Source: Fimbriimonas ginsengisoli Gsoil 348 (GTDB lineage Bacteria; Armatimonadota; Fimbriimonadia; Fimbriimonadales; Fimbriimonadaceae). From it: a stretch of DNA of 64,000 bases. Position numbers and translations under genes: made by a program. The stretch is from NCBI RefSeq assembly GCF_000724625.1, contig NZ_CP007139.1, positions 2,852,001 to 2,916,000 on the forward strand, written 5' to 3'. Positions within the stretch are counted from its first letter, which is position 1; every line of letters begins with the position of its first letter. The notes below the pieces were generated by a model. That model was not told the DNA's origin and searched no databases. It saw nothing but the letters and a program-made list of their open reading frames with translations. Below, in pieces: positions 7,468-60,172 of the stretch.

Positions 7468-7662
7468 TAAGGAGAAAGGACTCCGGTAGAACCGAAAGGA
7501 GAAAACCGGGGTTATCTTAAAGAAGGAAGAATTGTCGATTGAATGGTTTAGCGAAATAGCAACGAAGCCATCGAGATTAAATCAACCCGTAGCGTGCGGA
7601 AGGGCGAAGCGCTTCCCATCGCCATCGTCTCAACTCCAGCAGAAATCGTAGGATCGCCCCCC

Positions 7663-21463: not shown

Positions 21464-21717
21464 GTACTCAAGGCCCGACGGCAAGCCCGGCGTTTTTTGT
21501 GAGCCTGTGACACAGCATAGTTATTGGTGCCTCATCTGCGATTCTTACCGGTGAAATTGGGCTTTACACCGCAAGCAATCCGGACTTTTTCCGTTAATTC
21601 TTCCCCGCCGCAGGACACACCTCTCTCACGGGAACCCAGGGTCAAGGAACCCAGCCCGCCCGATGACGCGACCACTTTGCATAACTTTCAAGGACATCCG
21701 CTCCAAATCGTCGTGGC

Positions 21718-35679: not shown

Positions 35680-36711
35680 ATGAGAGTGACCATTCGAGAT
35701 GTGGCCGAGAGGGCGGGGGTATCGCCCATGGCGGTTAGCGTGGTGCTGAACGGCACCGGGGGACGAAAGGTAACGGTGGCTCCGGAAAAGGCGGAGCGAA
35801 TCCGGGAGATCGCTCGCGAGCTGCGCTACCAACCCAACCACGTCGCGCGCACTTTTCGTAGCGGCCGGACGGCCCAAGTTGCGGTCGTTTTTCAGAACTT
35901 TGGCCACTTCCGTTCCCATAGCTCTTACCGGGGCGACGTGATGAACGGGGTGATGGATGCGTTGTTTCCCGAAGGATACACGCTGTCGCTCTGTCCCAAG
36001 CTAATGGACGAGCGCCATCCCGACGCCATCTCCGACGGACGTTTCGACGGCGTATTGTGGTGCCGTCCGGACCTCTCGGATGCCTCGGCGACCGCCTTGC
36101 AACACGCCAGAGTGCCGGTGGTGATGATGCATGCTCCCGCCGGTACCGTCCTCGGGGTGCCGACCTTCTGCGCCGACAACGAAGGGGCGATGCGCAGGGT
36201 AGTCGCCCACCTTGTGTCGCTCGGGCACGAAAAGCTCGCCTTCGTCATCGATCCCGTGAGCGAACACAGCATCGAAGGTCAGTCGCGTGCGGAGGCGCTC
36301 AAGTCCGCCGCCCGTCGGGTCGGCCTGCAAGAACCCGACGTGATCGTCCTTGGCCAGGATCACCGCATCCTTTCGCGCTACGCCGAGCCGGACGCGCCGC
36401 ACACGGCGCTGGTCTGCTTCAGCGACGAGCTGGCCGGCTTTGTTCTCAAGTCCTGCGAGCAGTTCGGCATCGACGTACCGGGACATGTTTCCGTCGTGGG
36501 CTTCGATTCCTCTCCGCTGTGCGAAACGACGCGACCGCGGTTAACCTCCGTGGCTCAGCCCGTGGAACGGATGGCCTTCGAGGCTACCACCCATCTTCTT
36601 TCGCTTATCCGCGCCGCCGAAGAGGGCAAGCCCTCCCAGTCCGCGACCTCGACCCTGTACGACTGCGTTCTCGATATTCGCGAGTCCACAGCCCCGCCGC
36701 CGGCTCACTGA
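35680..36711 (+). CDS. LacI-family transcriptional regulator
   Basis: 343 residues. The helix-turn-helix is [21 protein letters not shown], and the hinge is [18 protein letters not shown]. The effector domain has [21 protein letters not shown] and [15 protein letters not shown]. The start at 35680 matches the family N-terminus; no Shine-Dalgarno precedes it. Only 11 bases separate it from the prepilin gene downstream, so the two are probably co-transcribed, an odd pairing for a sugar-type regulator. Confidence 0.92.
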
Positions 36712-36722
36712 AGAGTGTGATC

Positions 36723-37556
36723 ATGCAACGAAAAGCATTTACCCTTATTGAACTTCTCGTCGTAATCGCCATCATTGCGATCCTCGCCGCCATCCTCTTC
36801 CCGGTCTTCGCTCAGGCTAAGGAAGCCGCGAAGAAAACTCAGTGCCTTTCCAACATGAAGCAGATCGGCACCGGGTTCGCCCTCTATTTGGGCGATGCCG
36901 ACGACATGCTGCCGTGGTCCGCATACTGGGACTATTCGGCCTCGAGCGGCTGGGCGACCTCCGCGGGTGGCATGCACGAGTGGTCGCAGGTCATCTTGCC
37001 TTACATCAAGAACGGAAAGGAGCAGCTTCTTTCCTATGCGGGAGCCGCGGGTGGTCCGGGCACCGTTTTTTCATGCCCAACCAGTAAAGTTCCGGGCCAA
37101 CTGGACACCTACGGCGTTCACGACGACATGTTTCCGAAGTGCCTGAACTGGATGGGCCCCAACCCATCGGTCTGCACATCCCCTCGCTCCGCGACGATCG
37201 TCGACGACCCGGCGTCGAAAGCGATGGTGACCGAGAAGGGCTCGGCGAATGCCGGTCTCGTCGCCACCTTCGCGTTCGATACCCGCGCCATCGACTGGAC
37301 CGGGGTCTGGGACAATAGGGCGTCCACGACCAACGACATCGTCTTCCAAGCGCCGAACTACAACACCGTAACCGGCCAGAAGGCCGACTGCGACGGCGGG
37401 GCGCCCTGGAACTGGCCTCCAGACTGCGAGGCGTTCCCTAGGTTCCGACACAGTGGCGTCGCGAACGTCGCCTTTTTCGATTCCCACGTGAAGGGGATGA
37501 AGAAGGGCCAGCTCAACTACGGCCGCAATATCCGCATCGAAGGAATCACCTTCTAG
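36723..37556 (+). CDS. Type IV prepilin-like / pseudopilin protein
   Basis: 277 residues. [20 protein letters not shown] gives a prepilin signal with cleavage after Ala5. [20 protein letters not shown] follows, as in H-X9-DG proteins. The C-terminal signature is His, nine residues, Asp-Ser ([19 protein letters not shown]), so Gly is replaced by Ser. Four internal Cys may form disulphides. It is preceded by a LacI gene and followed by a long hairpin and a small lipoprotein. Confidence 0.92.
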
Positions 37557-38147: not shown

Positions 38148-38975
38148 CTACCTCTTGGCGTCCCACTGATTCAGATCGGGATGGTTGGCGGGATCAGGGT
38201 TCGTCGCCTCGGGTTTTAGCGACTTGGCGTGTCCGTCTGCATAAACGAAGTTCGACAAGCCACTGAACTTTGCCGAAACCGATCCGGCGGGGCCGTCGGG
38301 GTACGCAGCGGTCTTACTTCGGGTTCCATCCGGAATGGAGTTCGCCCTTGTGTAGAAGTGACCGCTGAAGAAAACGCCGGGGCCGAAATTGGACAGAGGA
38401 GCGTCCCAGTTCGCGGTGTTAGGAATCTTCAGCACGTCTGAGGCATACCGCTCGCCAAGAAGGATCGTCTCGGCGGGCTTGGTCACGGACGTACTGGAGA
38501 CCGCGCCGGTCTGCTGGATCCACCCTTCGCCGGAACAAGAAATCATTCCCATCGTGCCTCGAAGCTCGAAGCCATCGCTTCCCCAGTTGCCGTGGTAGCT
38601 ATTGGCCGCGAACGAAAAGAAAACGCCCGCCCAGTCGCCGTCCGATGACGGCTTGCCCGCTCGGTCGTCGACGGGAGAGAAGAAGACGTTTACGTTCTTA
38701 ATGTAGGGCAGGTTGAACTTGACGAAGTTCACGTTTCCGGCCCAGCCGCAGTTCTCATTGCGGTCGTTCCAACTCGGCGAGGTGTTGTCGTCGCTGTCGC
38801 CGGCGTACATGATGACCGCCAAGCCCAATTGCTTGGCATTCGAGAGTTGTTGAGTCTTCTTGGCGGCAAGCTTAGCTTGAGCGAAGACAGGGAAGAGGAT
38901 GGCTGCCAAGATGGCGATGATCGCGATCACGACGAGAAGTTCGATAAGAGTAAATGCCCGAACGATTTTCTTCAT
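38148..38975 (-). CDS. Type IV prepilin-like / pseudopilin protein
   Basis: 275 residues. The signal [20 protein letters not shown] has cleavage expected after Ala7. The linker [22 protein letters not shown] and the C-terminal [11 protein letters not shown] fit the prepilin-associated H-X9-DG group, though a matching His nine residues before DG is not evident. It ends [10 protein letters not shown] three-way RNA junction lies directly upstream on the same strand. Confidence 0.9.
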
Positions 38976-41040: not shown

Positions 41041-43427
41041 TTATAGTCGAACGACCAAGCCATCTGAGTTGGCTTTGGCATTGAACGGAAACCGGCCGTG
41101 GTAGACGCTTTGGACGTCGGCGACGTATTTGCGTAGCCACTGCGGGGCGTCTTGGGCGTCTCCCCAGCTTAGGCCTTCTCCCTCGGCCCAGGCTTGGTCG
41201 AAAGTCGCCCTTTCCGGCGAGCGGGCGAGGTGGTCGGCCAGTCCTAGGATGGTGGACAGATTACCGAGGGCCGCGCGGGCCGCGGGGCTGCCGCCCGTCG
41301 AGTCCGGTTGGGCCAGCATGAGGAGGGAATACAGTTGCAGCAGTAGGATCGAGACCGGGACCGTTTGGCTGAGACCTCTCTGGTCGCGTTGCGCGTCCAT
41401 CGCCAAATAGAGATCGTTCAGCCTGCCCATTTGGCGCTTCACCTGAGCGAGCCGGTCGCGAAGTTCGCCGATGCTCTCCACCCGCGATTTGAGGACGCCG
41501 GGTTGAAGGGATTCGTCGGGCGAGACGCCGAGGCTCGCCCCGACAGACGCCAACTCGCGCTTCACCGCTTCGAGCGATTCGAGGCTTTCCCGCAGAGAAC
41601 GAATCGCGTCGGCGACCGCCGCGTCCCCGATTCCCACGAGGTCCGCAGGCTCGCCCGGGAGCTCGCGCACTGCGCGCTTGAGGGCCTTGAGCTGCGCTTC
41701 GCTGTCTTTCCAGTTCCCAATCCTCACCAACGCGGCATCGAACGCTTGCAGAGTCGCGGGCTGACTCACATCGAGCGCCGAGAGGAGCTCGCTAAGTTGG
41801 CTATAGACGTCTTGGACCGCCGCCACGAGATCGGATTCCGACTCGGCGGGCAACGCTAGCGCCGTCTTAAGTCTCTGAACCAGCTCCCTGTGTCCGCCTT
41901 CGGCCTGCACGACCTTATCCATGAAGCGCTTGGCCAAGCGCGTGTGCTCGTTAAAGAGCACTTCGTCGGCGAAGCTGCTCGAAAAGGTGAGCTGATCTAC
42001 CATTGCTCGCCTGTTTTCGAGGGCCTCCTTTAGGAGTCCATTGTTGGACTCAAGTTGGTTTCGCAAGCGGGTTGCCCGTTCTTCCGTGTTCTGCATCTCG
42101 GTTTTCAGTCTTTCGACTTCCTCCCGATGTTTGCCTTGCCGGTCGATTAACTCATCGACGACCCGTTTCGGAAGGTCTTTCAACTGCTCTCTCGCGACCA
42201 TTTCGTCGGCGACGAGTTTGGGTAAGTCGGTTAACCGTTGGGGAATCGACTTTTCGGGAGCCTGCCCATCCACCACGCCTACGGCCTTGGAGATCGTGGT
42301 GAGTTCGGATAGGTTGGCGATGGTTACGGTCGCCGGCGGCGCCGGCGTTGTCACCATCGCGGACTGGAGATTGGAAGGAGAGACACTCGCGCCATTGGCG
42401 GCCGATCCGCCACTCCCGCCCACGAGACCTAGCTGCTTCCTCCCCAGGGCAGAGGCAAGAGTATCGATGAACCCAGGTTCGCCCATAAGCCTGGTTTGAA
42501 TCTCGTTGAGCTTGCCGTTATTGCCAAGGTTCTTGATCTTCAGGTAGTCCTGCCCGGTCTTGAAGACGCATTCGGCCACCTCTCTTGCCTGATCTTGGGT
42601 CGTGGTCGCTCCTGCCGCATCATCGGCGACCTTGCTCGGATCGAAACCTTGACCAGCCGCATGTACCGTCTGGGTCGAAGCGATCCCGCCTTCCTGTTTT
42701 TGCCGACTCCTCCAGTACCACGCTGCGGCCGTCAGCCCCGCGCCCAGCAAGAGGCCAAGCACCGCTCCTTGCACCATCGCAAGCCATGGGATGCCTTCCT
42801 TCTTTGCGGGCGGTGGCCCCGGTTTACCCTCCACCATGTTCGCGGGTCTCGGCAATCCCCGAATCTCCACCGCCGTTTTGGGAGCACCTCCTTGGAGTCC
42901 GTTGACGAACACCACATTCGGGCTCGCGTCACCCTTGGGCAGAGTAATTTCAAGCGACCTGTCGTTCGTCGGAGGTGGAATCTGCCACAGGCTTCGTATC
43001 ACCGCAGCGAGGTCCGTCGGGCTAATCGCGGCTTCCCCCACCTCCTTCTGAACGCCTGCGATATCGAGCGAACCATTTCCGTTGAGAAGCGGGGTTCTTG
43101 CTCCACTAAAGCCGGGCGATGTACCTAAGTCGAGCTGGCCCGATACTTCGGTGCGTCGCCAAGAGCCCAAACTATTCTTCGCACTGGCCGCTTGGAACAA
43201 CTGGCCCCCCCGCTCACGTTCGCATCAGCCATCAGCGAGGAAAGGAAAGCCGCATCCGCGCCCGAACTAAGCGTCCTGCCATCCGGCAAGAGCACCAAGT
43301 GCGCCTTGGTCTCCGTATCCTCGAAGACGGCAAACGACCGGTCCTTCCCGGTGACCACGGCGTAGACCTTTTCGGCGAACGCCGCCGCGGTCAAAGCGAA
43401 TAGGAAGAGGATGACGGCAACTCTCAT
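41041..43427 (-). CDS. Membrane-anchored coiled-coil protein of the tubulin operon (frameshift in a G7 run)
   Basis: The product would be about 795 residues. It starts MRVAVILFLFALTAAAFAEK (signal peptide) at 43427. The first frame runs to a run of seven G (43211-43205). Reading must shift by one base there (equivalent to one extra G) to continue as GGGQLFQAASAKNSLG in the long downstream frame to 41041. Further on are a Pro-rich linker, one membrane helix (AMVQGAVLGLLLGAGLTAAAW), a long coiled coil (KHREEVERLKTEMQNTEERA region) and a helical C-terminal domain. Last gene of the six-gene operon. Without a shift the signal peptide is lost from the 719-residue part. Confidence 0.75.
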
Positions 43428-43432
43428 GTTCT

Positions 43433-45757
43433 TTACCCTCGGCGGAGCCGCTCGGGCCATACCTTGTCCCAGATCGCGCCTGGGAGGTTTCCAAAGGCGA
43501 CCGTGTCTACGACGGCCGTTCCTATCACGAATTTTCGACAACCGTCGGCGGGATCGCGGAAGTACTTGATGGGAAGTTGAACGCTTGTCCCCGCGGGGCC
43601 AAGGGGCGCTTCCTGAATCGGGATCCACTTAATGCGGCTGATCTCCTCCTCCCGCAAAGGTTGTGTATCCTTCACGACTCGGGTCGAGAAGCAGAAATCG
43701 TACGCGGTCGAAACGACGCCGATTCCGGGATGCGAGTCTCCGCTCACATTCAGCAAACGCAAGTTGAGCGAGTAACGCCGGCGGCCATCCGGCAGCGGCG
43801 TGTCTGCATTCGCGGGAGCAAGGAAGTAACTGCCGAACAGCGCCTCGCGGTTGACGATCCGGTGGCCCGCCGTAAAGTATCCGTACGCGCCCCGGCAGCA
43901 CGCGGTCTTCAGCGCTTCCGAGCCGATCTCCTCGATGTGGGCAAGGTCCTGCAGAAATCGCCACGCTACGTCGCCACGAGCCTCGTGGACGGCGAAGAGC
44001 GAACGCAGCCGGCTGTACAGCGGCCGAAACTGCGAGGCTTGCCCCGCCACGATCACCGTGGTCGCGCGAGGAACCACCAGAGCGTCAACCGAGGCCTGCG
44101 GCGTCCCTCCCAACTGCTGAGCATCGGACACGGGAAAGTTCGTGTCGTTCGATTGATTGGTGCTGACCATGCGTGCAAGGTCGTGGATCAGACGGTCGGC
44201 ATTTCGCTCGACGTAGTCGCTGATGTCCTTTCCCAGTTGCCCTAAACGGTCGCGCCGCGAAAGCATCACGACTCGGAGCTCGCCTTCGCTAAACGGCCTC
44301 GTACGAGGGGAGCCTTCCTCCGGAAGCACTCTTAAGGTGTCTTGGTCCTCGACGGACTCGGGAGGCTGCCAAGCCTTCAGCGACAGCTTGCTTTCGCGTA
44401 CCACTGGGGCATCCATTGGGGGAAGCGGCTTTGCCTTTCGTCGGCTCCATAAATTCCATCCCTTGCGTTCCGCCTCGGGCGCGGGGGCAAGCGTCAGGTC
44501 GCTCGCTAGCCGGACGTCTCCGAAGAATAGGGCTTCGGCAATCGCATTCCGTAACCTGCGGAGCGGTTCGAGGTCTCCTCGCTCTTCGTCCGGGAGATCC
44601 TCGTAGACGTATCTCGTTAGGCCGTCGGCGATCGACTGGACGAGCCGCTCGGTCTCCTTGCTCTCCGGAACCTCGATGTGCAGCGAATCGGAGCAAGCCG
44701 CCTTCGTTACGTTACATAATTTCTCCAACTGGTTTAGAAGCCGATTGAATACTTCACCCCGTTGGCGGGAGCTCGTACGACCGTCCTGGGCCATGCCTAA
44801 AAAGCTGACCGGGGGCCGCGCGTACTGCATCTTCGACCCGACCACGGCGAAGACCCGCCGGATCTCTTCGTCGAAGAACCGGGCGAACAAAAACGTGAGT
44901 TCGCTGCCACCCGAGCTCGTACCGGCTCTTCCCAAAATCACGGTTTTCGGCGCACGGCCACTCGGCGGAGATTGGGTGTGCAGAACGCTAAGGTCGGTGG
45001 TCCCTTTGCCGACATCGATGGTGATGTACCGTCGATGCTCCAAATTCGGATCGAGGTTCTCGGCGAACTGATGCTGCGCCCCGTAGCGAGACCAGAAAAA
45101 AGCAATCGCGTCGGACTCGGAAAGCCATTCGACGCGGCCCACGTCCACGAGCTCGCGAATCTTTTGGGTAAGCCGTTGCGCGTGGGTCACGCTGTAGACG
45201 TTCGGCACGGTCAGCACGACCATCACCCTCTTAAGGTCAACCCCTCGTAGCGGTGAGGAACGAAGCACCAGGTTTTGGATAATTTGCGCGGCGAGGTGGG
45301 TAAGGGTCTTCTCCGCCTCGAGCTGACGCCCGTCCAGATCGAGGGCCAGATTTGCGTTGTACTGAAAGAAGAGTTTGGGATTTGGAAGAAGCTCCCGATG
45401 GTTAGGAGCGGCATCGAACTTTCTGAAAAGTAGGAAGCACGTCTCCTGGTACTTATCGAGATCGATCTTGCCATCCGGTTTGACGAAGACGATCCTGCCT
45501 TCTTCATCTTCAAACTTATATTCGAGCCGGCGAAACTGAACTTTCGACTCCATTCGACAACTCGGCTGGCCCTCCTCATCGCGCAACACGAAAGCCGCGT
45601 CACCGCTGCTCGGATGGAGAGAATCGGCGTACTCCTGCAAAGGAATCATTGCCGGCAGCCCGGGAATGTCTGGCCGCCCCCAGCAGGCGGCCATGGAGTC
45701 GGAGCCTAGGTCCAAGGCCACTAGGTAGTCGTACAGAGCCGGGTCGAACAGTTCCAT
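43433..45757 (-). CDS. Hsp70/actin-fold ATPase (SrfB-like)
   Basis: 774 residues. Actin-superfamily signatures are in order: phosphate-1 loop ALDLGSDSMA (14-23); a segment VVLTVPNVYSVTHAQRLT (180-197), matching Hsp70's VPAYFNDxQR; SESDAIAFF; phosphate-2 YITIDVGKGTTDLSVL (244-259); and an adenosine-type TVIVAGQASQFRPLYSRL near 600. A long insertion and a beta-rich C-terminal region resemble SrfB-type proteins more than chaperones. No peptide-binding domain is evident. It follows the VWA membrane gene by 6 bases and precedes the coiled-coil gene by 5. It could be a filament former or a regulator of the tubulin-like partner. Confidence 0.8.
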   Translation of the reverse strand: MELFDPALYDYLVALDLGSDSMAACWGRPDIPGLPAMIPLQEYADSLHPSSGDAAFVLRDEEGQPSCRMESKVQFRRLEYKFEDEEGRIVFVKPDGKIDLDKYQETCFLLFRKFDAAPNHRELLPNPKLFFQYNANLALDLDGRQLEAEKTLTHLAAQIIQNLVLRSSPLRGVDLKRVMVVLTVPNVYSVTHAQRLTQKIRELVDVGRVEWLSESDAIAFFWSRYGAQHQFAENLDPNLEHRRYITIDVGKGTTDLSVLHTQSPPSGRAPKTVILGRAGTSSGGSELTFLFARFFDEEIRRVFAVVGSKMQYARPPVSFLGMAQDGRTSSRQRGEVFNRLLNQLEKLCNVTKAACSDSLHIEVPESKETERLVQSIADGLTRYVYEDLPDEERGDLEPLRRLRNAIAEALFFGDVRLASDLTLAPAPEAERKGWNLWSRRKAKPLPPMDAPVVRESKLSLKAWQPPESVEDQDTLRVLPEEGSPRTRPFSEGELRVVMLSRRDRLGQLGKDISDYVERNADRLIHDLARMVSTNQSNDTNFPVSDAQQLGGTPQASVDALVVPRATTVIVAGQASQFRPLYSRLRSLFAVHEARGDVAWRFLQDLAHIEEIGSEALKTACCRGAYGYFTAGHRIVNREALFGSYFLAPANADTPLPDGRRRYSLNLRLLNVSGDSHPGIGVVSTAYDFCFSTRVVKDTQPLREEEISRIKWIPIQEAPLGPAGTSVQLPIKYFRDPADGCRKFVIGTAVVDTVAFGNLPGAIWDKVWPERLRRG

Positions 45758-45763
45758 GGTTGG

Positions 45764-47416
45764 TTACGCGTTTGCGGTGAAGACGACCTGGAGTCCCGAT
45801 GACAGCGGGCCCGATCGGCAAGTGAGGTTCGCCGTTGTGGGGTTTTCGGAGGTCTGCTCCCAGACGGCGCAAATCGTTCGGCCTTTCACCCGCCGAAGCA
45901 GGGGGACTTCCTCGTCTCCGTCGATGCGCCACTTCATCGTCGCGCCGCTCGAGCATTCGAGCGATAGCCGGGCGTTTCGGTTGACGAGTTGGCGCACAAT
46001 GCGGTTGGGCAGCAAGACGGTGAGCGCCACCGTATTGGGCTCGGGAGGGAGCCAAACATGTTCGGTCGCGGAGAATCCTTGCTTTGCCAAATGTGGCAGC
46101 AGCACCGGCTGGTTCGGATACTGATCCAGCAACACCTGGACTTGCCACGCCTCAACGATCCGTCGGGTACTCCACCAAGTGCCTAGGGTGAGGATCACGA
46201 CTCCCAAGCCCCATATCCACGGGTTCTCCGTCGCCGGCACTTCGGGCAGTTGAGCGAGGTCGAACTGCTGCGGCGTAAATTGGTACGTCGTCCGCCGCAT
46301 GCCCAGTTGAGGGTCGCTTCGCGAGACGGAGACCGTCAGCCGGAGGTCCCCCAAGAACCCCCAGGGAGGGCGATTCGGGAATTGCAGACGAACGTGATCG
46401 AAAGGGCGATCAAGGTCCAGCGGCAGCGTCTGCCGTCGATCGCCGGCTTCGACTTCAACCGAGCCTTCGAACGAGTCGGCCGAGGCGAGCCAAGACGTAA
46501 ACTCCGGAGCGAGTCGGAAAGCCACTTCCGCTTCCGGGCGGTCGCTCTTGGACGAGAACCAGCGGGCGGCGGCGCTCTTGAACGGGAGCAAGGACTCCCC
46601 TTTTTGCTCCAAGGCGCTGCGCTCGCGCGCCACCACCTCTTGCAGGCTAGCCCAGACCACCGGATCCCCCTTCGTCGGGTATGCCTGCTCGTAGATCACC
46701 CCATCCGACCCGGTTCCGTCGGTAAGGCGGTATCGGTCGGCGAATCTCCGGCGCTTGGCGGCGGGGTCTTCGTTAGTCTCGCGGACGAGTCGGTCCAGCG
46801 TAACGGCTTCGGTGCTGAGGGTCGAATCGTTGACCTGGTCGTCGCTGATCAGCAGGAGGTAGGTGCGCTGAATCTCGCGCGCCTTACCCGCCCGGGCTTC
46901 CAACAGCCCATAGGTCCGCGCCCAGCTTTGGGGGCCGTACCAATAGGGAGCCAGATCGCTATTGCCAACGTAAGGCAACGACGCACGGAGCCGGAAAGGG
47001 TCGAACTTCAGGGAAAGGCGGACGTCGGCATGAATGAAGTCGTGGGGCAGCTTCGACCTTCGAAGCTGCGCCGCTAGCTCGTTTTGGTTCGGACTCGCCT
47101 TGGAATTGGTGACGACCCCGTAGCGAATGAGCGAGACATAGTCGACCCCCTTCCGGTAAGGCGGGACAGTGGGCCGCCCCTTGGCGGCCGGGAATCCATG
47201 GCGCGCGAGGTGCGCGAACACCTCCCCCTCCATCGCGTCGCGCGACGCGTTCCGCCGGCGAACAGCATCTTCGGCAGTCCCGTGGTGCATCGAGCGGGAT
47301 GCATCCACGAGGACGATGAAGTGCCGGGGTCCGGTATCGCTTTGGCCCACAGCAAGCGTCGCGGTGAGGAACACCGCGGCGACAGTCGAGGACATCCTGG
47401 ACAGGATCGATCTCAT
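45764..47416 (-). CDS. VWA-domain membrane protein of the tubulin operon
   Basis: 550 residues from the ATG at 47416, giving the signal MSSTVAAVFLTATLAVGQ. A von Willebrand A domain has the MIDAS sequence VLVDASRSM near residue 40 and a later ISDDQVNDS. After it come a beta domain, a membrane helix (PWIWGLGVVILTLGTWW) and a cytoplasmic tail of about 130 residues. The topology puts the VWA domain outside and the tail inside, next to the tubulin- and actin-like products. Start chosen to exclude overlap with the tubulin-like gene, 19 bases upstream. Confidence 0.85.
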   Translation of the reverse strand: MRSILSRMSSTVAAVFLTATLAVGQSDTGPRHFIVLVDASRSMHHGTAEDAVRRRNASRDAMEGEVFAHLARHGFPAAKGRPTVPPYRKGVDYVSLIRYGVVTNSKASPNQNELAAQLRRSKLPHDFIHADVRLSLKFDPFRLRASLPYVGNSDLAPYWYGPQSWARTYGLLEARAGKAREIQRTYLLLISDDQVNDSTLSTEAVTLDRLVRETNEDPAAKRRRFADRYRLTDGTGSDGVIYEQAYPTKGDPVVWASLQEVVARERSALEQKGESLLPFKSAAARWFSSKSDRPEAEVAFRLAPEFTSWLASADSFEGSVEVEAGDRRQTLPLDLDRPFDHVRLQFPNRPPWGFLGDLRLTVSVSRSDPQLGMRRTTYQFTPQQFDLAQLPEVPATENPWIWGLGVVILTLGTWWSTRRIVEAWQVQVLLDQYPNQPVLLPHLAKQGFSATEHVWLPPEPNTVALTVLLPNRIVRQLVNRNARLSLECSSGATMKWRIDGDEEVPLLRRVKGRTICAVWEQTSENPTTANLTCRSGPLSSGLQVVFTANA

Positions 47417-47435
47417 TAACGTAAAGCGGGATCCG

Positions 47436-50400
47436 TCAGATGGTCGGTCCGTAGTAGTGCTCGCTGAATTGGCGGCACTGCCAAAGCTGCTCCGCGGCCT
47501 CATCCTCGGTAGCGCCGATCAGCTCCTCACACTTCGGACAGTAGTAGCCGTCCTGCTCGAAGACGTCACCCTCGTCGCGCAGCCGTCCTTTCGCCCGGAA
47601 AAGCATGTGCTTTCGTTCGGGAGTGATCTGGACGACCTTCACGAGGGCGCGCTTTAGCCGCTCATCGGATCGCAGGTAATCGGTAAGGTACTTGCCGATC
47701 TGGTCGTTGTCGGTGAGCGCGCGGCCGAGCTTCTTCGTGCCGTAAGCGTCGACGAGACCCTGAACGAACTCGACGTCGTTCGACTCCGCCCGCTTGCTTT
47801 CGATCTTCTCCCGCAGCCTCGTCTCCATATCGACGGGCATCTGCTTGCCCGTCACGTCGCGCTGGTCGCGCCCGTATTTGCGGCTTGCCAGCTCGATGCT
47901 CGTGGGGAGTTGGAATGTGATCGGCTCGCGGAACCCTTCGGCGGGCGTCTCGACCTCGAGGAAGCTGTTTCGGATCTTCGCGAAGTTCAGCATCACCGCC
48001 ATCGCGAGTGTCGGCGCCAGCCGGAGGTCCGACGGGCTCGGCGGAACCGGCGGAAGCCGCCACGCGATGTCCTTGCGGGTGTGGAACGTGGGGAAGTCGT
48101 TGCTCTGGGCTTCGGCCAGGCTGCCGGGACCGCTGATCTCCGTGCATGCGCTCAGGGGGAATCCGAGCGAGTGGCGGATGAGGATCACGCGGTACTTCTC
48201 CGGCGAATCCTGTTCCTTCCACTCTCCCGCGCCTAGGGATTGCAGCGTGCCGGCAAAATCCTGGCGCCGGGGGCTCTGCGGCAGGAGCACGGAGAGCTTT
48301 TCGACCAGGGCTTCGCGCGCCCCGGCGTTGGCATAGTCCATGCTCACGTCCAAGTACGAGGAGCACAGCGAGACGAGCTGCGCGATGCTCGTGCGTCGCG
48401 AGTCGTTCGAGTGGTGCTGCCGATACCAGCGGTCGAGCACGTTTTCCTGAAGGATCGGCTCGAAGATGGCCCGGGAGACGCTGGTGAGCGCCTGCTCGTA
48501 AACCTCGGGGACTTGCGCCTCGTCGTTCGTTTGCCGGTTCCGGCGTAGCCAATCCTCTTGGACGCTCGCCCCTTCCAGGTTCACGTCCGCCACGAGCTGG
48601 GTGCGCAGCTCTCCGTTGTCCAGGGCGGCGACGATGTCCCTAAAGCACTCGGCCTCACCGATGGTCCAACCCCGTTGGTTTACGCGATCGTCCAGGACCT
48701 TGGTGTACTCCTCGAAGACGGTACCGTTTCCGCCTGCGTCCGCCTCCGGGTCGAACAGGACGATCCCTTGAGTGGAGACCGGCTGGCGCGAGATCTGGCG
48801 CTGTTTGGAGTCGAGTTCCTCGGCAAGAGCTTGTAATCGCGTGGACGCCGCCTCCAGCTTACGGACCGGGCCGTCCAATTTGGACGCGAGTAGCTTCGCG
48901 AGCCCATCCGCCTTCGTGCCGTCCGGCCGCTGGCTATCCACGAAGTGGCGCATCACCTCCATGTCGAGGCGGCTCTTGAACTCCTCGACCAGCGCCTGCG
49001 TGAGCTGCGCGATCAACGACTCCTTGTTGGAGCTCTTCACGCCCAGGAACCTCGAGAGCGTCGTGGGCTCGGCCTTCGTCAGTTCGTCAAGCACCTTTTC
49101 GGCGGTGCTCGCCTTAAGCTGCCCCAGCGAGGCGCCGGCCATCGCGTAGAGCGCCTTCTGGCTTTCCAGCAGGGCGCGGTGGCATGCGACGGGGCCGGCG
49201 TCCATGCTCATGAGGTTGCGCTTGACCCACTCCTTGATCCCGTCGCCGAATCCCGCGCCGAACGACTGGGCGGCCTTCCCCAACAGCGCCGGCACGCTGC
49301 CCGCGCCGGGCCAGTCGGCAGCAGTGGGTAACACGACGAACGACTCCCGAAGGTTCCGAATGTCCTGCCGCGCCTGCGTCGGATTCGTGCGGGCCATCTC
49401 GGCGATCTGGCGGATCCGCGTCTCGACGAGATTCCACAAGCCACCGGATTGCGATCCCGCGATCCGTGCGTAGATCGACTCCCAAGTGATCCCAAGATCG
49501 GCCTGAAGTTTGGCTACCTGCGTCTCGTCGGTCATGCACCAAGCTTTCAGCGCCTTGGCGGCCAGCCGTTTGGAACAAGCCTCGACGATGCGGATGGCCG
49601 GGAACTCCAAGTACGCGAGTCCCACCGTTGAAAACTCGTAGGCCGAGTTCCCACTCGCCAACGGCGCGATGTCCGCCCGGGTGCCCGCTGTCCCGGTTTG
49701 CGGGGCGACGATGTTCAGGAAGACGACGTCCGCGATGGAGGAGTTCAGCGCTTCGAGGTTGTTGCGCTCCTGCCGGGGCATCAACAAGTAGATTTGGCTA
49801 TAGGGGCGGTCCCCGCTCCGTTGAACCGACTTATCCGCGTAGTAGATCGGCGGATCGTTCGGGTCCATGAGCGAGTAGTGATTCAGCTCGACGAGGCTGG
49901 TGTAAGCGTTCTTCTTGAGCCTTTGGCTCCCCAGGCTAGGCCTGGGAAGGGAGAACATTGCGATCATATCGTCGCCGCTGTGCCCCGAAAGCTTCTTGAT
50001 GAGCAGCCCGAAATCGGGCGAGATACCGCCGGAGGTTCCGCCGCAGAGCGAGCCGACGACGAAGAAGTTAATGTTGTCCTGACGGCCGGACCGGCTAGCG
50101 TTTTGGAAGGTGATGGACGGCGCGGTTCCGTCTCGAAGTTGCCCCAAAACGCTCTCCGCTTGCGTCGCGGAAAGGGGCCGGATTTGGTTCACAAGGTCCG
50201 AGAGCTTTGCCTTTACCCGCTCGAAGTTGCGCGAGTACATCAGAGCGACCCGGCCGACCATTCGGATGTTGCCGGCGCCGGCGGAGATTTGCGAGTTGGG
50301 GAGCTTTTGAAGCGTGCCCTTGTGCGACCACTCGCTCAGGCGGATCGTCTCGTCGTGCCGCTCGGGCGTCTTCGCGAGCGAATCCCAATCCGAGGACTCG

Positions 50401-50612
50401 ATCGCCAGATGAATCTGAGCACCGGCCTGATCGATCGTCATCGGTTCGTTGACGTCGGTCTCGATGCACAGGAATTTCACCCATGGCACTTGGTCCAGGG
50501 AGCCGTATTCCCATCGGAGGCGATCCGCGATCTCGTTGCAAATCTGCGTTCCAGTGCTGCCCAGGCCGACGACGATGGTTTTGTTAACGGTGATTGGAGT
50601 TGGGGATGGCAT
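47436..50612 (-). CDS. Tubulin/FtsZ-superfamily GTPase (Tubulin_2-like) with zinc-ribbon tail
   Basis: 1058 residues. The N-terminal nucleotide loop is IVVGLGSTGTQICNEIADR (13-31), and the tubulin signature appears as SLCGGTSGGISPDFG (188-202), the counterpart of GGGTGSG. An Asn-rich loop and a long helical C-terminal region (about 400-1000) follow, far longer than FtsZ. Near the end CPKCEELIG and a single later Cys suggest half of a zinc ribbon. Families of this type (FtsZl, described by Makarova and Koonin) are linked to VWA membrane proteins and predicted to act in membrane remodelling. Third gene of the operon, 4 bases after a small membrane protein. Confidence 0.88.
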   Translation of the reverse strand: MPSPTPITVNKTIVVGLGSTGTQICNEIADRLRWEYGSLDQVPWVKFLCIETDVNEPMTIDQAGAQIHLAIESSDWDSLAKTPERHDETIRLSEWSHKGTLQKLPNSQISAGAGNIRMVGRVALMYSRNFERVKAKLSDLVNQIRPLSATQAESVLGQLRDGTAPSITFQNASRSGRQDNINFFVVGSLCGGTSGGISPDFGLLIKKLSGHSGDDMIAMFSLPRPSLGSQRLKKNAYTSLVELNHYSLMDPNDPPIYYADKSVQRSGDRPYSQIYLLMPRQERNNLEALNSSIADVVFLNIVAPQTGTAGTRADIAPLASGNSAYEFSTVGLAYLEFPAIRIVEACSKRLAAKALKAWCMTDETQVAKLQADLGITWESIYARIAGSQSGGLWNLVETRIRQIAEMARTNPTQARQDIRNLRESFVVLPTAADWPGAGSVPALLGKAAQSFGAGFGDGIKEWVKRNLMSMDAGPVACHRALLESQKALYAMAGASLGQLKASTAEKVLDELTKAEPTTLSRFLGVKSSNKESLIAQLTQALVEEFKSRLDMEVMRHFVDSQRPDGTKADGLAKLLASKLDGPVRKLEAASTRLQALAEELDSKQRQISRQPVSTQGIVLFDPEADAGGNGTVFEEYTKVLDDRVNQRGWTIGEAECFRDIVAALDNGELRTQLVADVNLEGASVQEDWLRRNRQTNDEAQVPEVYEQALTSVSRAIFEPILQENVLDRWYRQHHSNDSRRTSIAQLVSLCSSYLDVSMDYANAGAREALVEKLSVLLPQSPRRQDFAGTLQSLGAGEWKEQDSPEKYRVILIRHSLGFPLSACTEISGPGSLAEAQSNDFPTFHTRKDIAWRLPPVPPSPSDLRLAPTLAMAVMLNFAKIRNSFLEVETPAEGFREPITFQLPTSIELASRKYGRDQRDVTGKQMPVDMETRLREKIESKRAESNDVEFVQGLVDAYGTKKLGRALTDNDQIGKYLTDYLRSDERLKRALVKVVQITPERKHMLFRAKGRLRDEGDVFEQDGYYCPKCEELIGATEDEAAEQLWQCRQFSEHYYGPTI

Positions 50613-50616
50613 GGAC

Positions 50617-50925
50617 CTAACCTCGCGAGGACTTAATCAACATGAACGCGCCCGGTAAGATCGCGGAAGCGGAGACCGAGGCGGCGAAGAACCCGAGATC
50701 GGGGAGGCAAAGAAGCAGAGCGAAGAGGATCGTGAGCGCGAGGGTCACAAAAAGGCCCGTGACCGAGGCCTTTCGCGCAGCCGGGCCCTCGTAACTTCCT
50801 CCGTCCACCATCGCGTTCGCGATAAGCCCTGCGCTAAGCCTCCAAATAATCAGGCCCAGAACCGCAAAGACGATGACGATGGCCGATTTGGGAACCGACG
50901 ATAAGAAGTTCTTGTAAACGTCCAT
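50617..50925 (-). CDS. Small membrane protein of the tubulin operon
   Basis: 102 residues with two strong membrane helices: AIVIVFAVLGLIIWRLSAGLIA (15-36) and VTGLFVTLALTILFALLLCL (about 55-74), then a third weaker hydrophobic stretch. The short loop NAMVDGGSYEGPAARK carries charges. No family is recognised. It is 3 bases after the upstream VWA-like gene and 4 before the tubulin-like gene, so expression is tightly linked; it may anchor the filament to the membrane. Confidence 0.75.
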   Translation of the reverse strand: MDVYKNFLSSVPKSAIVIVFAVLGLIIWRLSAGLIANAMVDGGSYEGPAARKASVTGLFVTLALTILFALLLCLPDLGFFAASVSASAILPGAFMLIKSSRG

Positions 50926-50928
50926 TAG

Positions 50929-52287
50929 CTAGCTACTCAGGATCTCGACCTTTATCGGTACTTCCACGTTGGTGGGAGGCAGCAACGGCTGGGGTCGGTG
51001 TTCGACCTCGAACACGATCTCCCCGACGAATCCAACTTCGAGAGAGATATCGCCGGCAACGGTCTCGAGCGACTTACGGATAATCCGGGACTGTTCTGCG
51101 GTGATTCGAATTTCATTTCCTTCGTACAGGAACGTCGCCACCTTCAGCGGAGGAATGCCGACGATCTGCACCAGATTGGGAGAATCACCCGGATATCCTT
51201 GTCCGACGATCGTACAAACCGCATCTGCTTCTTGCTTGTTCACGAGATCGAAGGTGATATCCTTCACCTTAAGGTACCGAGGCTTCTTGATGGGCCTCGT
51301 CCTCAGCAATGTCCAAGCAATTGCGGCGACGACCGCAAGAGACGCGATTACGGTCGCGATGATCGCCGCTTTGTTGTCTGGCTCAGGCGGCGTCCGCATC
51401 TGGGGTCCTGGCCCCGGCCCTGGGTTTGGGTCACCCGGTTTCGTAGGAGTCTGAACAGGGTAATCGGCTTGCTTGACTCGCTCGAACGCCTCCTGAATTG
51501 CCGGACGTGGCGAAGCGAGCGGCTCCCCCGAGAAATCGCCTCTCACGAGGAGCAGCGCATCCAGCGTGCGGTCGAAGGATCTGCCTTTCTCGGTAAAGCG
51601 AAAAGGTAGTTTGAGGGAGGCTTGTCCCGGATCGACCCGCTCGATAGGGAAGGCCCGGATCGCCTCCACATATGCCGCGTCTTTCTCCCCCACGAAAGGA
51701 GCGGCCAAACCCGCTCCTTCTCCGACCTGGCTCTTGATCTCCGGAGCGATCAAGACGACGATGCTGTTCCGGCCCGGGGATGCCAATTGGCATAAGTCGA
51801 TAACCGCGCGTTCCGTATCGTGTCCAAGGTTCTGGCGGTTGTCCGGCGTGCCGGGCATCATCGTCCAGATATCTCCGACCGACGAGTCCTTCCCGGGTTT
51901 GACCTCGACCGACTGAGGTGCTCCGTTCACTGACCAAACGTTCGCCTGGAACCCACGGATCGAAACGGTGTCGCCGGGCTCCAGAAGCCCCTCGCAGAGT
52001 GTCCAAACGATCTCTTGCGCGGCGTTGCGGTTGACCGCGTCGGTATTGAAATGGCCCGTACTCAACCCGATGACCAGGTTGATCCGTGTCCGGCCGAGGT
52101 CGCTCCTCCGCCGGCGAACGGCCGTGTCGATCGCCGACGCGATCTTATGTGCCGATCCCTTGCAAGAATCGAAGTCCGTGACCGTTTGCGCACGTGATCG
52201 GGCGGGGGCCCCAAAAAAGATGGCGAGAACTGCGCCGAAAAGGATTGCACCGCGGAGGGTACAGAAGGAGCGGTCAGAATCGGTCAC
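50929..52287 (-). CDS. VWA-like secreted/membrane protein, first gene of the tubulin operon
   Basis: 452 residues beginning with GTG at 52287. Signal region GAILFGAVLAIFFGAPARSRAQ. The extracytoplasmic domain has a VWA-like order (INLVIGLSTGHF for the MIDAS strand, but with Leu-Ser-Thr instead of Asp-x-Ser-x-Ser, and SIVVLIAPEIKSQ for a later strand), so metal binding is doubtful. A Pro/Gly linker (PGPGPGPQ) leads to a membrane helix (ATVIASLAVVAAIAWTLL) and a beta-rich cytoplasmic domain. It is the promoter-proximal gene, with a TATAAT box 7 bases upstream. Confidence 0.8.
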   Translation of the reverse strand: MTDSDRSFCTLRGAILFGAVLAIFFGAPARSRAQTVTDFDSCKGSAHKIASAIDTAVRRRRSDLGRTRINLVIGLSTGHFNTDAVNRNAAQEIVWTLCEGLLEPGDTVSIRGFQANVWSVNGAPQSVEVKPGKDSSVGDIWTMMPGTPDNRQNLGHDTERAVIDLCQLASPGRNSIVVLIAPEIKSQVGEGAGLAAPFVGEKDAAYVEAIRAFPIERVDPGQASLKLPFRFTEKGRSFDRTLDALLLVRGDFSGEPLASPRPAIQEAFERVKQADYPVQTPTKPGDPNPGPGPGPQMRTPPEPDNKAAIIATVIASLAVVAAIAWTLLRTRPIKKPRYLKVKDITFDLVNKQEADAVCTIVGQGYPGDSPNLVQIVGIPPLKVATFLYEGNEIRITAEQSRIIRKSLETVAGDISLEVGFVGEIVFEVEHRPQPLLPPTNVEVPIKVEILSS

Positions 52288-53566: not shown

Positions 53567-56500
53567 TCATCGCCGCCAAATATGAACCTCGCCCGAAATC
53601 GTGGTGCCGACGAGACATCGATTGTCCAGCGTGAAGTGAACGTCGATGTAAGGCGATGTGGCTTCGCCAATGCTGGTTATCTCACGCCCGGTCGCGAAGT
53701 CCCATAGCTTAACGGTTTTATCGTAGCTACCGGTCGCGATCCGGCGTCCGTCGGGTGAAAGATCGATGCTCGCCACCGTTTGGCCGTGCCCGACCAAACG
53801 GGAAACGGTCCGGCCCGTACCGGCCTCAAGCACGCTCCCGGTATCGTCGTCGGCGGCGGTCAGCAGCCACCGGTCATTGGATGCGAAGCGGAGTTGGTAG
53901 ACACTCCAATAGTGAATGGTCGAAGACCATTGGATTTTCCAGGTATTCGTGTCGAACACCGTGACCGTCCCATCGATAAATCCCACCGCCAGGCTCCGCC
54001 GATCGTGACTGAGGGCGAAGGCGGAGGATTGAAGATCGAAGCGCACAGTCTTTACGAAAGCCTTGACCCGATCGTCCCAGATCCGCAGCCGGCGGAGGTC
54101 GGAAGCGATCAGAAGTCTGTTGCGATCCAGCCGCTTGACAACGGTTTGCGTTATCGATTCGTCTTTTGCTCGCAAAAGTTCACGGCCCGAAGCGACGTCA
54201 AGGATCTTGAACTCTTGTCGGCCGACCTGGCAAAACGCCAAGGCGCCATCCGAGTCGATTTTTGCCGGCCCGGGCGCTGGCGCGATAGGTAGTGCCTGAA
54301 AACCTGTGAGAACGGGAGCCCCGACGATCTTTCCACCCGTGAAGGCGGTCAGCCGGTCGCCACTCCACCCTATCGGTGACGTCTCCCACGGGGCGCTGCC
54401 GCCTATGGAGAAAGGCTGCTCGGCATCCGGCATTGCGAGATCGACAAGTCTTAATCGATCGTAGGAAAACGCGAGGTGACGCGAATCGGGAAAGAACAGG
54501 CAAGAGTTTGCGCCTCGGTAGATTCGGTACGAGTTCGGCCTGATCCCGTCCATCCGATCGACCCGGAGGATCCTGTTGTTGGCAACAGAAGACATCAATC
54601 GGCCATCAGGCGAAAACTTAATGATCGTTCCCACGCCCTGCTTGCCCGATTGACGCAGTCTTTTCCTTCCGCTCGGAAGGTCGTACGTGACCAAGTCGCC
54701 TGATAGCAGCACAGCAATCATAAAGCGACCGGAAGGGTGGACTCTGACGATATTCGTCCGATAGTCGCAATCCACCGTATGCAGAAGCTTCCATGTCTTG
54801 ACATCGATAAACAGAACGTGCCGGGGCTCCTTGTCCCCGGGGTGAACGGACGGGTACCGGCAAAGCCACACAAGCTGGCGGCCGTCTTGCGAAAACTCGA
54901 CATCCCACCAGTTGCCCGTCGATATCGCCGGTAATGCCAGCCGTCGAATTCTCCCTGTGTTCACGTCGAGAACTGAGAGCTTTCCGTCAAGACCCTCGCT
55001 TGCCATCCATCTACCATTCGGGGAGATCGCCTCGCCGTTCGGACTGAGCACATTCCAACCTAGAGACCGGACCAGATGGCCGTCTCGGGCATCCCTCAGT
55101 TGAGTCGAGGCGGGCTTCCCGCGCTCTTGAACGACAAACCTATCGTTACCGGCAAACTGAGCTATGGTGTCGTGACCAGGAACCTTGAAAGAGCGCATCT
55201 CGTGGAGGTCGCTTCCATCCAATAAGTGCACTCGGTCTCCCGTGCGGCTCAGAATCGTTTTTCCGTCGGGCGAGAGTTGGGGCCAATACGATCCGCGCGT
55301 CACGTCTGTGTGTGGCCCATTTCCAGTGACGCGTCGCGACCAAAAATCCCACTCCCAGCCTCTGGCCGGATTGAGAGAAATCCGCTGAAGGGTATGGGCC
55401 ATGCGCTCGGTTTGCCCTTCCGACCACAGCATCGGCATCAACTGCATTGAGGCGAGGTATGCCTCGTACTGCTCCCGGTTTCCGGCGAGCTTGGCGTCGC
55501 GAGCCAAACGGGCGTTGCTCCAGGCGAGGAACGCGAACCCGCCCACAACCGAGGCGGCCACGACGGTTGTTCGTAAGGCGCCCTTCCAGAACGCTCTCTT
55601 CTGTCTTCGGAGCTCCTGCCCGGGCATATTCTCTTTGATCCAGCCGGGGCCGAAGATCTGACGGTAGATTTCGTTGCGGACGGTGAGATGGCCGCTATCG
55701 AGCCGCGCGACGCCGCTCATTTTGATCCGCGCCGCGTGTGGGTTGCTCTCGTCGTCTTGGATTCCGCTCTTTAGGAGCTTGGCGTAAAGCGAAAGTGTGT
55801 CGGCTCTTTCTGCGTCTCCTACATTGGGGTCTCCACGGCCGAGGAGGCGGTTCCCCACGTCGGCGAGGTTGGTATCGGTCTCCCTGGCTCTTGCGTCCAA
55901 GTACCGCTCTCTGACTAGCTGGTCCACATCGACGCTCTTATGAGCCAGATCCGCACCAAGGGTCTGAGTGAGGAACGGGTGACCGCCCGTCCAGTGGAGG
56001 ATTCGTCGAATCAACTGCTCGGCCCCTCCTGTCGCGAGACCCTTGGTGAGCGCGCTTGCTTCCTCCTGCGTGAAGTCTCTGAGCTCCACTCTCCTCCCCA
56101 CGTTGAAAGGAGTGCTTCTGGGATCCCGGATGAGATCGCTCGGGAGCGCCGCACCCAGGAGACAGAACGTGAGGCGCGTAAGTGAAGCTTCGGAGGCTCT
56201 GCCGTTATGGAGCTGCCGAATCCCGGCGAACAGCTCATCGGTGGAGAAGGCAAGGGAGCGCACCGCGTCGATCTCGTCCAGCAGTACCACCAAGGGAGTT
56301 TCCTGAAGCGGAAGCGCCACTTCCTGCAGGAAAGAGAGGTAGCGCTGAGCCGGACCAAGCTCCTTGTGCTCTCTTAGAAACGCAACCGCCTGCGCCCTAA
56401 GATCCAGCACCCTTCCCGTTTCCGCCAGTAGCCCCGCGTACCACTGCTCCGCCGATACGTTAGCGCCCCCGATACGGGTGAGGTCCACAAAAGCCGTTCT

Positions 56501-56722
56501 AACTCCCCTTTCTTGCAGCCGAGCCACCGTTCGAACGGCCAGGGAAGACTTGCCCATCTGGCGGGAGTTCAGGACGTAGCAATACTCACCTGAAAGCAGC
56601 GCCTCGTAAAGCTCGCGGTCCGCCGACCGTTCCACGTAAGACGGAGACCCTGAGGGCACCGTCCCGCCCGAGACGAAAAACCCCCGCCCCGGATACGTCG
56701 ACGTGGCCGGCTCCAAGCTCAT
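53567..56722 (-). CDS. AAA-like ATPase with membrane helix and C-terminal WD40 propeller
   Basis: 1051 residues. The N-terminal P-loop domain (AAA-like, as found in cyanobacterial signalling proteins) has LNSRQMGKSSLAVRT (51-65) and Walker B PLVVLLDEIDAV (143-154). HWTGGHPFLTQTL is the typical sensor/winged-helix junction. One membrane helix (TVVAASVVGGFAFLAW, near 385) separates this from a WD40-like propeller ending with IDLSPDGRRIATGSYDKTVKLWDF. The start overlaps the stop of the decayed upstream paralog by 4 bases (ATGA). Such proteins are thought to be signalling or effector NTPases; the trigger is unknown. Confidence 0.85.
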   Translation of the reverse strand: MSLEPATSTYPGRGFFVSGGTVPSGSPSYVERSADRELYEALLSGEYCYVLNSRQMGKSSLAVRTVARLQERGVRTAFVDLTRIGGANVSAEQWYAGLLAETGRVLDLRAQAVAFLREHKELGPAQRYLSFLQEVALPLQETPLVVLLDEIDAVRSLAFSTDELFAGIRQLHNGRASEASLTRLTFCLLGAALPSDLIRDPRSTPFNVGRRVELRDFTQEEASALTKGLATGGAEQLIRRILHWTGGHPFLTQTLGADLAHKSVDVDQLVRERYLDARARETDTNLADVGNRLLGRGDPNVGDAERADTLSLYAKLLKSGIQDDESNPHAARIKMSGVARLDSGHLTVRNEIYRQIFGPGWIKENMPGQELRRQKRAFWKGALRTTVVAASVVGGFAFLAWSNARLARDAKLAGNREQYEAYLASMQLMPMLWSEGQTERMAHTLQRISLNPARGWEWDFWSRRVTGNGPHTDVTRGSYWPQLSPDGKTILSRTGDRVHLLDGSDLHEMRSFKVPGHDTIAQFAGNDRFVVQERGKPASTQLRDARDGHLVRSLGWNVLSPNGEAISPNGRWMASEGLDGKLSVLDVNTGRIRRLALPAISTGNWWDVEFSQDGRQLVWLCRYPSVHPGDKEPRHVLFIDVKTWKLLHTVDCDYRTNIVRVHPSGRFMIAVLLSGDLVTYDLPSGRKRLRQSGKQGVGTIIKFSPDGRLMSSVANNRILRVDRMDGIRPNSYRIYRGANSCLFFPDSRHLAFSYDRLRLVDLAMPDAEQPFSIGGSAPWETSPIGWSGDRLTAFTGGKIVGAPVLTGFQALPIAPAPGPAKIDSDGALAFCQVGRQEFKILDVASGRELLRAKDESITQTVVKRLDRNRLLIASDLRRLRIWDDRVKAFVKTVRFDLQSSAFALSHDRRSLAVGFIDGTVTVFDTNTWKIQWSSTIHYWSVYQLRFASNDRWLLTAADDDTGSVLEAGTGRTVSRLVGHGQTVASIDLSPDGRRIATGSYDKTVKLWDFATGREITSIGEATSPYIDVHFTLDNRCLVGTTISGEVHIWRR

Positions 56723-59473: not shown

Positions 59474-60172
59474 CTATGCAAGAAGTCTTTCGAGTCTTGT
59501 TTTGCGTTCCCGCCAGTCGGGCATGTGGCCGTCTAGAAGGCGGAAGAAGGCCCGCGAATGATCCGGGACGAGCAGGTGGCAGAGTTCGTGCAGCACCACA
59601 TATTCGATGCATGACCGTGGAGCTCGGATCAAATCTACGTTCAAGCTAATCCGACCGTCCGGATGACAGGTGCCCCATCGATGCGAGAATTGTCTGATTT
59701 CGATCGCCACTTCGACTGGCAGTTTCCGATGAAACTCTTTCTGCACTTTTGCAAGGACAAACTCGAAATGTCGCTCTGCTTGGCATCGATACCACTTCCA
59801 AAGCGCCTTTCTAACTGAATCGGGAGAAGCTATTTTGAGCGTGACCTCGATATAGCCTGCCCACACCCGGATCGGTGGCCCCGAGCCTTCGATAGTTTTC
59901 AGCCGGTATTGCCGACCCAGATACAAGTGCGTTTCACCCGAGACGTATTGGCGCGGCGGGGTACGCGGCTTGAACTGAGCGAAGAAGTCCTTCTGTCTTC
60001 GGATCCACGCACGTCTCCGTCGCACTCGTGCGGCAACTTCTTCGTCTGTTGCAGTTAGTGGCGCGCGGACTTCGACCTCACCACCCGGATGTACGGTGAT
60101 GGCCAGAGTCTTTCGCTCTAACCGATGAAGCGTTATTTGCAGGCGATCGTCAGGGCCAAGCTCGACCGTCAT
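59474..60172 (-). CDS. YgjP/DUF45-type zinc metallopeptidase linked to type I restriction
   Basis: 232 residues. HELCH (195-199) with His205 makes a gluzincin-like zinc site, in the usual VVLHELCHLLVPDHSRAFF context. QFSHRWGTCHPDGRISLN is the YgjP signature. Its ATG overlaps the HsdR stop by 4 bases. Genes of this family commonly sit next to hsdR, but their job in restriction is not established. Confidence 0.9.
   Translation of the reverse strand: MTVELGPDDRLQITLHRLERKTLAITVHPGGEVEVRAPLTATDEEVAARVRRRRAWIRRQKDFFAQFKPRTPPRQYVSGETHLYLGRQYRLKTIEGSGPPIRVWAGYIEVTLKIASPDSVRKALWKWYRCQAERHFEFVLAKVQKEFHRKLPVEVAIEIRQFSHRWGTCHPDGRISLNVDLIRAPRSCIEYVVLHELCHLLVPDHSRAFFRLLDGHMPDWRERKTRLERLLA

Follow-up and report, generated by a model that had tools for sequence, protein, structure and literature searches.

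Do a tubulin-like GTPase and an actin/Hsp70-like ATPase that are encoded in one bacterial operon, together with VWA-domain membrane proteins, belong to a single machine, and what might such a machine act on? The question is raised by an operon of Fimbriimonas ginsengisoli Gsoil 348 (Armatimonadota), in a 64,000-nucleotide stretch of the genome that is here called the window (G000:C1:2852001-2916000); the genome, G000, is a single contig of 5.23 Mb. An earlier reading of the window, the original prediction, had described six genes separated by gaps of 3-19 bases. The operon is real and co-directional on the minus strand, but it comprises seven open reading frames (ORFs) and not six, and the short gaps hold for the first five genes (3, 4, 19 and 6 bases) but not for the last gap, which contains the seventh ORF. 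The operon joins two modules that are normally apart, a front half of the FtsZl1 type and a back half made of VwaB, the ATPase and a coiled-coil protein. It is a new variant of the FtsZl1-type operon, in which the tubulin core is combined with a VWA-anchored ATPase module that is otherwise tied to a wall synthase. Its features are listed in gene order (TM, transmembrane; aa, amino acids).

41041-52287, minus strand: operon of seven co-directional ORFs, from ORF calling on the window
50929..52287, minus strand: VwaA, with a signal peptide, an extracytoplasmic VWA-like domain, a TM segment (residues 307-325) and a cytoplasmic tail
50617..50925, minus strand: small membrane protein of 102 aa with 2-3 TM helices, from the ORF and TM prediction
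47436..50612, minus strand: predicted Tubulin_2/FtsZl1 GTPase of 1058 aa (PF13809)
45764..47416, minus strand: VwaB, with a signal peptide, a VWA domain, a TM segment near residue 400 and a cytoplasmic tail
43433..45757, minus strand: putative actin/Hsp70-superfamily ATPase (ACT) of 774 aa, from motifs and a chain of profiles
43125..43427, minus strand: seventh ORF, with a signal peptide and a short extracytoplasmic region, missed by the original prediction
43205..43211, minus strand: G7 tract (C7 on the plus strand), at which the reading frame appears to shift by -1
41041..43200, minus strand: TM and coiled-coil protein, whose first in-frame start codon is TTG 43200

The 1058-aa protein had been proposed to be a Tubulin_2-type GTPase, and its match to PF13809 over the full model (1-356 of 356; E 1.9e-69; 235 bits against a cut-off of 27) identifies it as a predicted full member of the Tubulin_2/FtsZl1 family. 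Consistent with membership, the operon encodes VWA-domain membrane proteins, namely VwaA and, with a metal ion-dependent adhesion site (MIDAS), VwaB. The window copy is the sole Tubulin_2 gene of this genome; across the phylum, 84 of the 291 genomes carry one. A plasmid search returned a full-length match to the tubulin-like protein of Deinococcus deserti (99% coverage, E 7e-86). In a tree of 62 tubulins, built by a quick method, the window tubulin was placed in a clade of seven with a support of 97. The other six members, its nearest sampled relatives, all have VwaA-, MotA- and MotB-like neighbours, and three of them are encoded on Deinococcus plasmids. The gene order in Deinococcus is VwaA, a 108-aa TM protein, tubulin, MotA/TolQ/ExbB, OmpA, an 860-aa protein and a beta-helix protein. 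The MotA-like proteins of the relatives carry a GLLGTV..GL signature and the MotB-like proteins an invariant Asp within the TM segment. Because all six clade-mates carry this pair, the window lineage probably once had a MotA/MotB pair and has since lost it.

The first gene had been read as a VWA-like protein with a TM segment. The domain and the segment were confirmed, but the MIDAS is lacking in VwaA and its place is occupied by a STGH..DP motif that is conserved in the family. This family comprises the VwaA proteins of Armatimonadota and Deinococcus (hidden Markov model E 1e-57 to 1e-65) and is common to other FtsZl1 operons. In Deinococcus a protein of 108-109 aa lies at the same place, between VwaA and tubulin, and the small membrane protein is its equivalent by position only; two TM helices are clear in the window protein, as had been noted, and there is possibly a third. 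VwaB has the intact DxSxS of the MIDAS (DASRS) that the original prediction had reported, although its start lies at ~47416 and not inside the tubulin gene. The hydropathy of both VWA proteins (signal peptides and single TM segments) places the two VWA domains outside the inner membrane, and the tubulin and the ATPase inside it.

The 774-aa protein gave no match in a direct Pfam search. Both phosphate loops that had been seen in it, LDLGSDS and DVGKGTTDL, are present and nearly invariant in six relatives. The alignment of six sequences over their length showed five ordered actin/Hsp70 motifs, mostly invariant: phosphate 1 (LDLGSDS, 15-21), connect 1 (ESDA, 214-217), phosphate 2 (DVGKGTTDL, 248-256), adenosine (AGQASQF, 571-577) and connect 2 (K617..C620..GA, 623-624). 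The profile of this family (A1) matched that of a Zn-ribbon Hsp70 family (A2) with a probability of 96.7% (E 3e-10), and the A2 profile matched DnaK structures with an E of 2e-24. Compared directly, A1 matched the DnaK, MreB and FtsA of its own genome with E values of 3e-4, 6e-4 and 4e-3, respectively, against 0.4-0.7 for unrelated profiles. Because of the five ordered motifs and the profile chain to DnaK, membership in the actin/Hsp70 superfamily is supported at the level of sequence, and the actin-fold assignment thus withstood the profile searches that could have placed the protein elsewhere. The suggestion of two filament-forming folds did not survive: the ATPase stands at about equal distance from DnaK and MreB, and nothing indicates polymerisation. 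SrfB, an actin-like protein of SrfABC operons, was considered and rejected, as there was no Pfam match.

Within the phylum, full-length members of the ATPase family turned up in five genomes (G000 with two copies, G092, G093, G094 and G035). The collection was scanned with a single sequence and exact peptide patterns, a method of limited sensitivity, so the family may be spread more widely. No relatives of the ATPase were found in a scan of viral contigs with its profile or in a tblastn search of plasmids. Apart from coiled-coil noise, VwaA, the small TM protein, VwaB, the ATPase and the coiled-coil gene remained unassigned in searches of Pfam, NCBIfam and PADLOC.

All five loci of the ATPase family outside the window (L041-L045; the second locus of this genome, three congeners and Chthonomonas) encode a VWA protein, the ATPase, a coiled-coil protein and then a protein of ~1670-1790 aa. 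The cassette of this genome (G000:C1:197278-207900; L041:3234-13882) was not recognised by Pfam or PADLOC. In it, the VWA protein and the ATPase form one polypeptide of 1263 aa (G000:C1, ~204100-207900). Residues 30-546 of VwaB match residues 36-527 in the N-terminal half of this fused paralogue (L041:10091-13882; E 2e-23), and residues 11-773 of the window ATPase match its residues 544-1259 (E 5e-76). Because the two are naturally fused in the same genome, there is strong evidence for a predicted joint action of VwaB and the ATPase, which bears out the proposed coupling of the ATPase to a VWA membrane protein.

The giant protein that ends the cassette gave a weak Pfam transpeptidase match (9e-4). 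The best structure matches of its profile were FtsI (0.0025), RodA (0.003) and PBP2 (0.008), each aligning with the part of the protein where it would be expected, and the profile matched the RodA and FtsW of this genome at 2.5e-4, against 0.3-0.6 for other controls. A SEDS-like TD..S...GE-type loop, the SxxK (GSTIKP-type) and KTGT are conserved, while the SxN motif is not. By these profiles and motifs, the giant protein is a SEDS-transpeptidase fusion, a predicted peptidoglycan synthase. It is present in a single copy in this genome (G000:C1:197278-202239), which also holds an ordinary RodA, FtsW and FtsA and two MreB. The Chthonomonas calidirosea locus (L042:762-19389; L001 and L042 lie on the same contig) has, in addition to the cassette, two kinase-like proteins and a 1492-aa VWA-Hsp70 fusion, and this operon thus encodes two actin/Hsp70-fold proteins.

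The neighbourhood survey covered 291 genomes of the phylum with 72 tubulin loci. Each half of the window operon recurs in this sample, but the joint was seen once and no other case of the exact gene order was found, so that the co-occurrence expected from the original prediction was borne out for the halves and a conserved six-gene co-operation was not shown. The Zn-ribbon Hsp70 family is encoded at ~15 of the 72 tubulin loci (L067, L068, L071, L072, L078, L081, L082, L085, L086, L088, L089, L091, L093, L095 and L100), and three of these loci (L078, L081 and L088) are from the same genus. FtsZl1 tubulins of this phylum thus repeatedly have an Hsp70/actin-fold ATPase as a neighbour, drawn from different families, and the claim that a tubulin-fold and an actin/Hsp70-fold protein are encoded together with VWA membrane proteins is supported. 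A trypsin-like protease (PF13365, E 3e-22) is encoded at L086:12518-13426, and its family recurs beside the tubulin gene at L068, L071, L073, L082 and L100.

The seventh ORF starts 5 bases past the ATPase stop (43433), between the ATPase and the coiled-coil ORF. The G7 tract is the only homopolymer of at least 7 bases in the operon, and a TGA at 43227 closes the coiled-coil frame upstream of TTG 43200. The codon-usage scores were +14.7, +11.8 and then -5.4, -4.8 for the 5' frame, and -8.5, -1.9 and then 0.1, +5.9 for the 3' frame. Codon usage therefore favours the frame of the short ORF to ~43228 and the coiled-coil frame from ~43226, with the G7 tract in the changeover interval. At the same position, L041, L042 and L044 encode one protein of 386-576 aa with a signal peptide, a TM segment and a coiled coil; at L043 and L045 the equivalent protein is split only past the coiled coil. 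When profiles were compared, the coiled-coil ORF showed no significant homology to the proteins at the corresponding position (E 0.1-0.2). Because of the switch in codon-usage frame at G7 and the single ORFs in the relatives, the seventh ORF and the coiled-coil ORF are probably the 5' and 3' parts of one gene. This is the simplest reading, and the -1 change at the tract would then be a sequencing error, a real slip or recoding.

We favour, at slightly less than an even chance, the explanation that the operon encodes an accessory cell-envelope machine built from two exchangeable modules. It builds on the gene content, the fold assignments and homologies, the VwaB-ATPase fusion, the SEDS-transpeptidase linkage and the position of the tubulin in the tree, which implies module exchange. 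Module 1 (VwaA, the small TM protein and the Tubulin_2 GTPase) is the known FtsZl1 core, with the cytoplasmic tubulin tied to the inner membrane by VwaA. In the nearest relatives, this core is encoded with the MotA/TolQ-like and OmpA/MotB-like pair, which would be proton-driven and reach the wall (peptidoglycan) through the OmpA domain. Module 2 (VwaB, the ATPase and the signal-peptide/TM/coiled-coil protein) would take the place of the proton-channel pair, both presumably being energy or signal modules that act across the membrane. If the two modules co-operate, an ATP-driven conformational change of the ATPase could pass force or a signal outwards through VwaB to an extracytoplasmic target, with the tubulin providing the positioning. 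The most likely output would be local remodelling of peptidoglycan or the envelope, because module 2 elsewhere accompanies the SEDS-transpeptidase fusion. The system would be accessory, because the genome has its ordinary MreB (2), FtsA, RodA and FtsW.

Several findings weigh against this explanation. The two modules were found joined in a single case, and the SEDS-transpeptidase gene is absent from the window operon. The coiled-coil gene may be broken at G7, so that module 2 might be inactive here. AlphaFold2 prediction of the ATPase with two sequences (the relative being that of Chthonomonas, L001) gave a predicted local distance difference test (pLDDT) score of 30. The MotA-/MotB-like pair is absent from the operon, and models from the nearest relatives found no match in this genome, with a MotB model of limited sensitivity that also missed the divergent MotB known at L081 (G080); the genome-wide loss is thus likely but unproven.

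It is unlikely, though deserving of serious consideration, that the ATPase acts as an Hsp70-like chaperone or switch tethered to the membrane, forms no filament, and serves to fold, take apart or regulate the tubulin or the VWA proteins. The DnaK-like Zn-ribbon Hsp70 (E 2e-24), homologous to the window ATPase and found at about a fifth of the tubulin loci, would fit this, and an Hsp70-type partner is perhaps a general need of FtsZl1 systems. However, no substrate-binding domain was recognisable by Pfam in either ATPase family, and the family of the window ATPase is tied to wall synthases, like the actin-like MreB and FtsA. The same recurrence of an Hsp70-fold partner in other tubulin operons speaks against two independent systems, the FtsZl1 module and the VwaB-ATPase-coiled-coil module, having been joined on a shared transcript by rearrangement, which we consider rather improbable. 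Each half exists without the other and the combination is unique among the genomes surveyed; nevertheless, the insertion follows the tubulin gene directly, with a gap of 19 bases, and occupies exactly the positions of MotA and MotB.

The original prediction had left a choice between an envelope-spanning shape, secretion or defence machine. The envelope part is retained through the SEDS-transpeptidase link, but defence was not favoured by the neighbourhood statistics. Among 110 proteins from the flanks of 33 tubulin loci, a handful matched defence genes (a nickase, one Septu locus and some general matches), about as many as among 110 control proteins from random stretches of the same phylum (restriction-modification and mad3). 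An anti-phage machine with a Zorya-like envelope sensor is accordingly very unlikely. The relatives do have ZorA/ZorB-like MotA/MotB proteins (PADLOC ZorB1 E 1e-17), brxL adjoins the Thermus and Meiothermus relatives, and the window contains a type I restriction gene at a distance of 8 kb. Yet those Thermus and Meiothermus tubulins belong to a distant branch (L138 in the tree), the PADLOC matches to the operon genes are coiled-coil noise only, and ZorC, ZorD and ZorE were not recognised.

A broader proposal, which we make tentatively and hold to be on the doubtful side, is a plug-in architecture of FtsZl1 systems: a common VWA/tubulin core would draw its power from one of two units, a proton-motive unit of the MotA/MotB type or an ATP-driven actin-fold unit anchored by VWA, and the second of these could instead be attached to the SEDS-transpeptidase fusion. 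Under this proposal, the window operon would be a first case of a tubulin- and an actin-superfamily protein within one transmembrane machine. Among the papers searched, only PMC2875224 and PMC9871819 are directly concerned with Tubulin_2, and in the literature searched no experimentally shown function of FtsZl1 tubulins was found since their description in 2010. The locus offers a concrete lead on these tubulins, which are widespread in bacteria and archaea. The hypothesis that an interchangeable energy module works on the wall across the inner membrane can be tested in Deinococcus or Armatimonadota. The ATPase family and the VWA-ATPase-SEDS/PBP cassette are themselves unrecognised by the family libraries searched.

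Other features of the window and of the sampled loci were recorded. Rfam, tRNA and promoter scans of the operon region found nothing. On the minus strand lie tandem WD40-repeat paralogues (53567-56722 and 56719-59316), the first of which contains an AAA_35 ATPase domain (E 8e-29), and, within 59474-63393, the type I restriction subunit (PADLOC REase_I E 9e-187), which is followed by what we take, from reading its sequence, to be a small YgjP-like metal-dependent hydrolase. Elsewhere in the window are a secreted protein of 2013 aa with many similar ~80-aa Ig-like repeats (1386-7427, plus strand), a hybrid sensor kinase of 1855 aa with repeated PAS-like units in series (15917-21484, minus strand), and three proteins that have a type IV prepilin-like N-terminus in common (7594-8475, ~36700-37556 and 38148-38975). 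Meiothermus and Thermus plasmids (L137:6306-14383 and L138:8404-16363) encode, consecutively, a vWA protein, a tubulin-like protein, a 680-aa protein and a BREX-type brxL.

Among known systems, the operon resembles the FtsZl1 membrane-remodelling operons as presented in the main text of Makarova and Koonin 2010 (PMC2875224) in its ~1050 aa Tubulin_2 GTPase, its VWA-type membrane protein and its further TM proteins; that main text mentions no actin/Hsp70 ATPase as part of them. The relatives add OmpA-like proteins, whereas the window lacks the OmpA/MotA pair, in whose place the VwaB-ATPase-coiled-coil module is found. In the Deinococcus plasmid operons (for example NC_012529 110941-114153, annotated 'tubulin-like doman-containing protein'), VwaA, the 108-aa TM protein and tubulin have the same order and spacing, but are followed by the MotA/TolQ-like, OmpA family, 860-aa and beta-helix proteins. 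In the nearest relatives, the MotA/OmpA-MotB pair is of ZorA/ZorB-like architecture, as in Zorya (ZorAB) and the MotAB/TolQR/ExbBD motors; the window operon differs in lacking the pair and Zorya effector genes. The sister cassette at L041-L045 is like the Rod complex (MreB-MreC-RodA-PBP2) and the divisome (FtsA-FtsW-FtsI) in having an actin-superfamily ATPase, a TM/coiled-coil protein, and a SEDS protein with a class B penicillin-binding protein (PBP). In contrast to these complexes, the ATPase of the cassette carries a long insert and is linked to a VWA protein, and SEDS and transpeptidase are one polypeptide; where the sister cassette has this synthase, the window operon has a tubulin.

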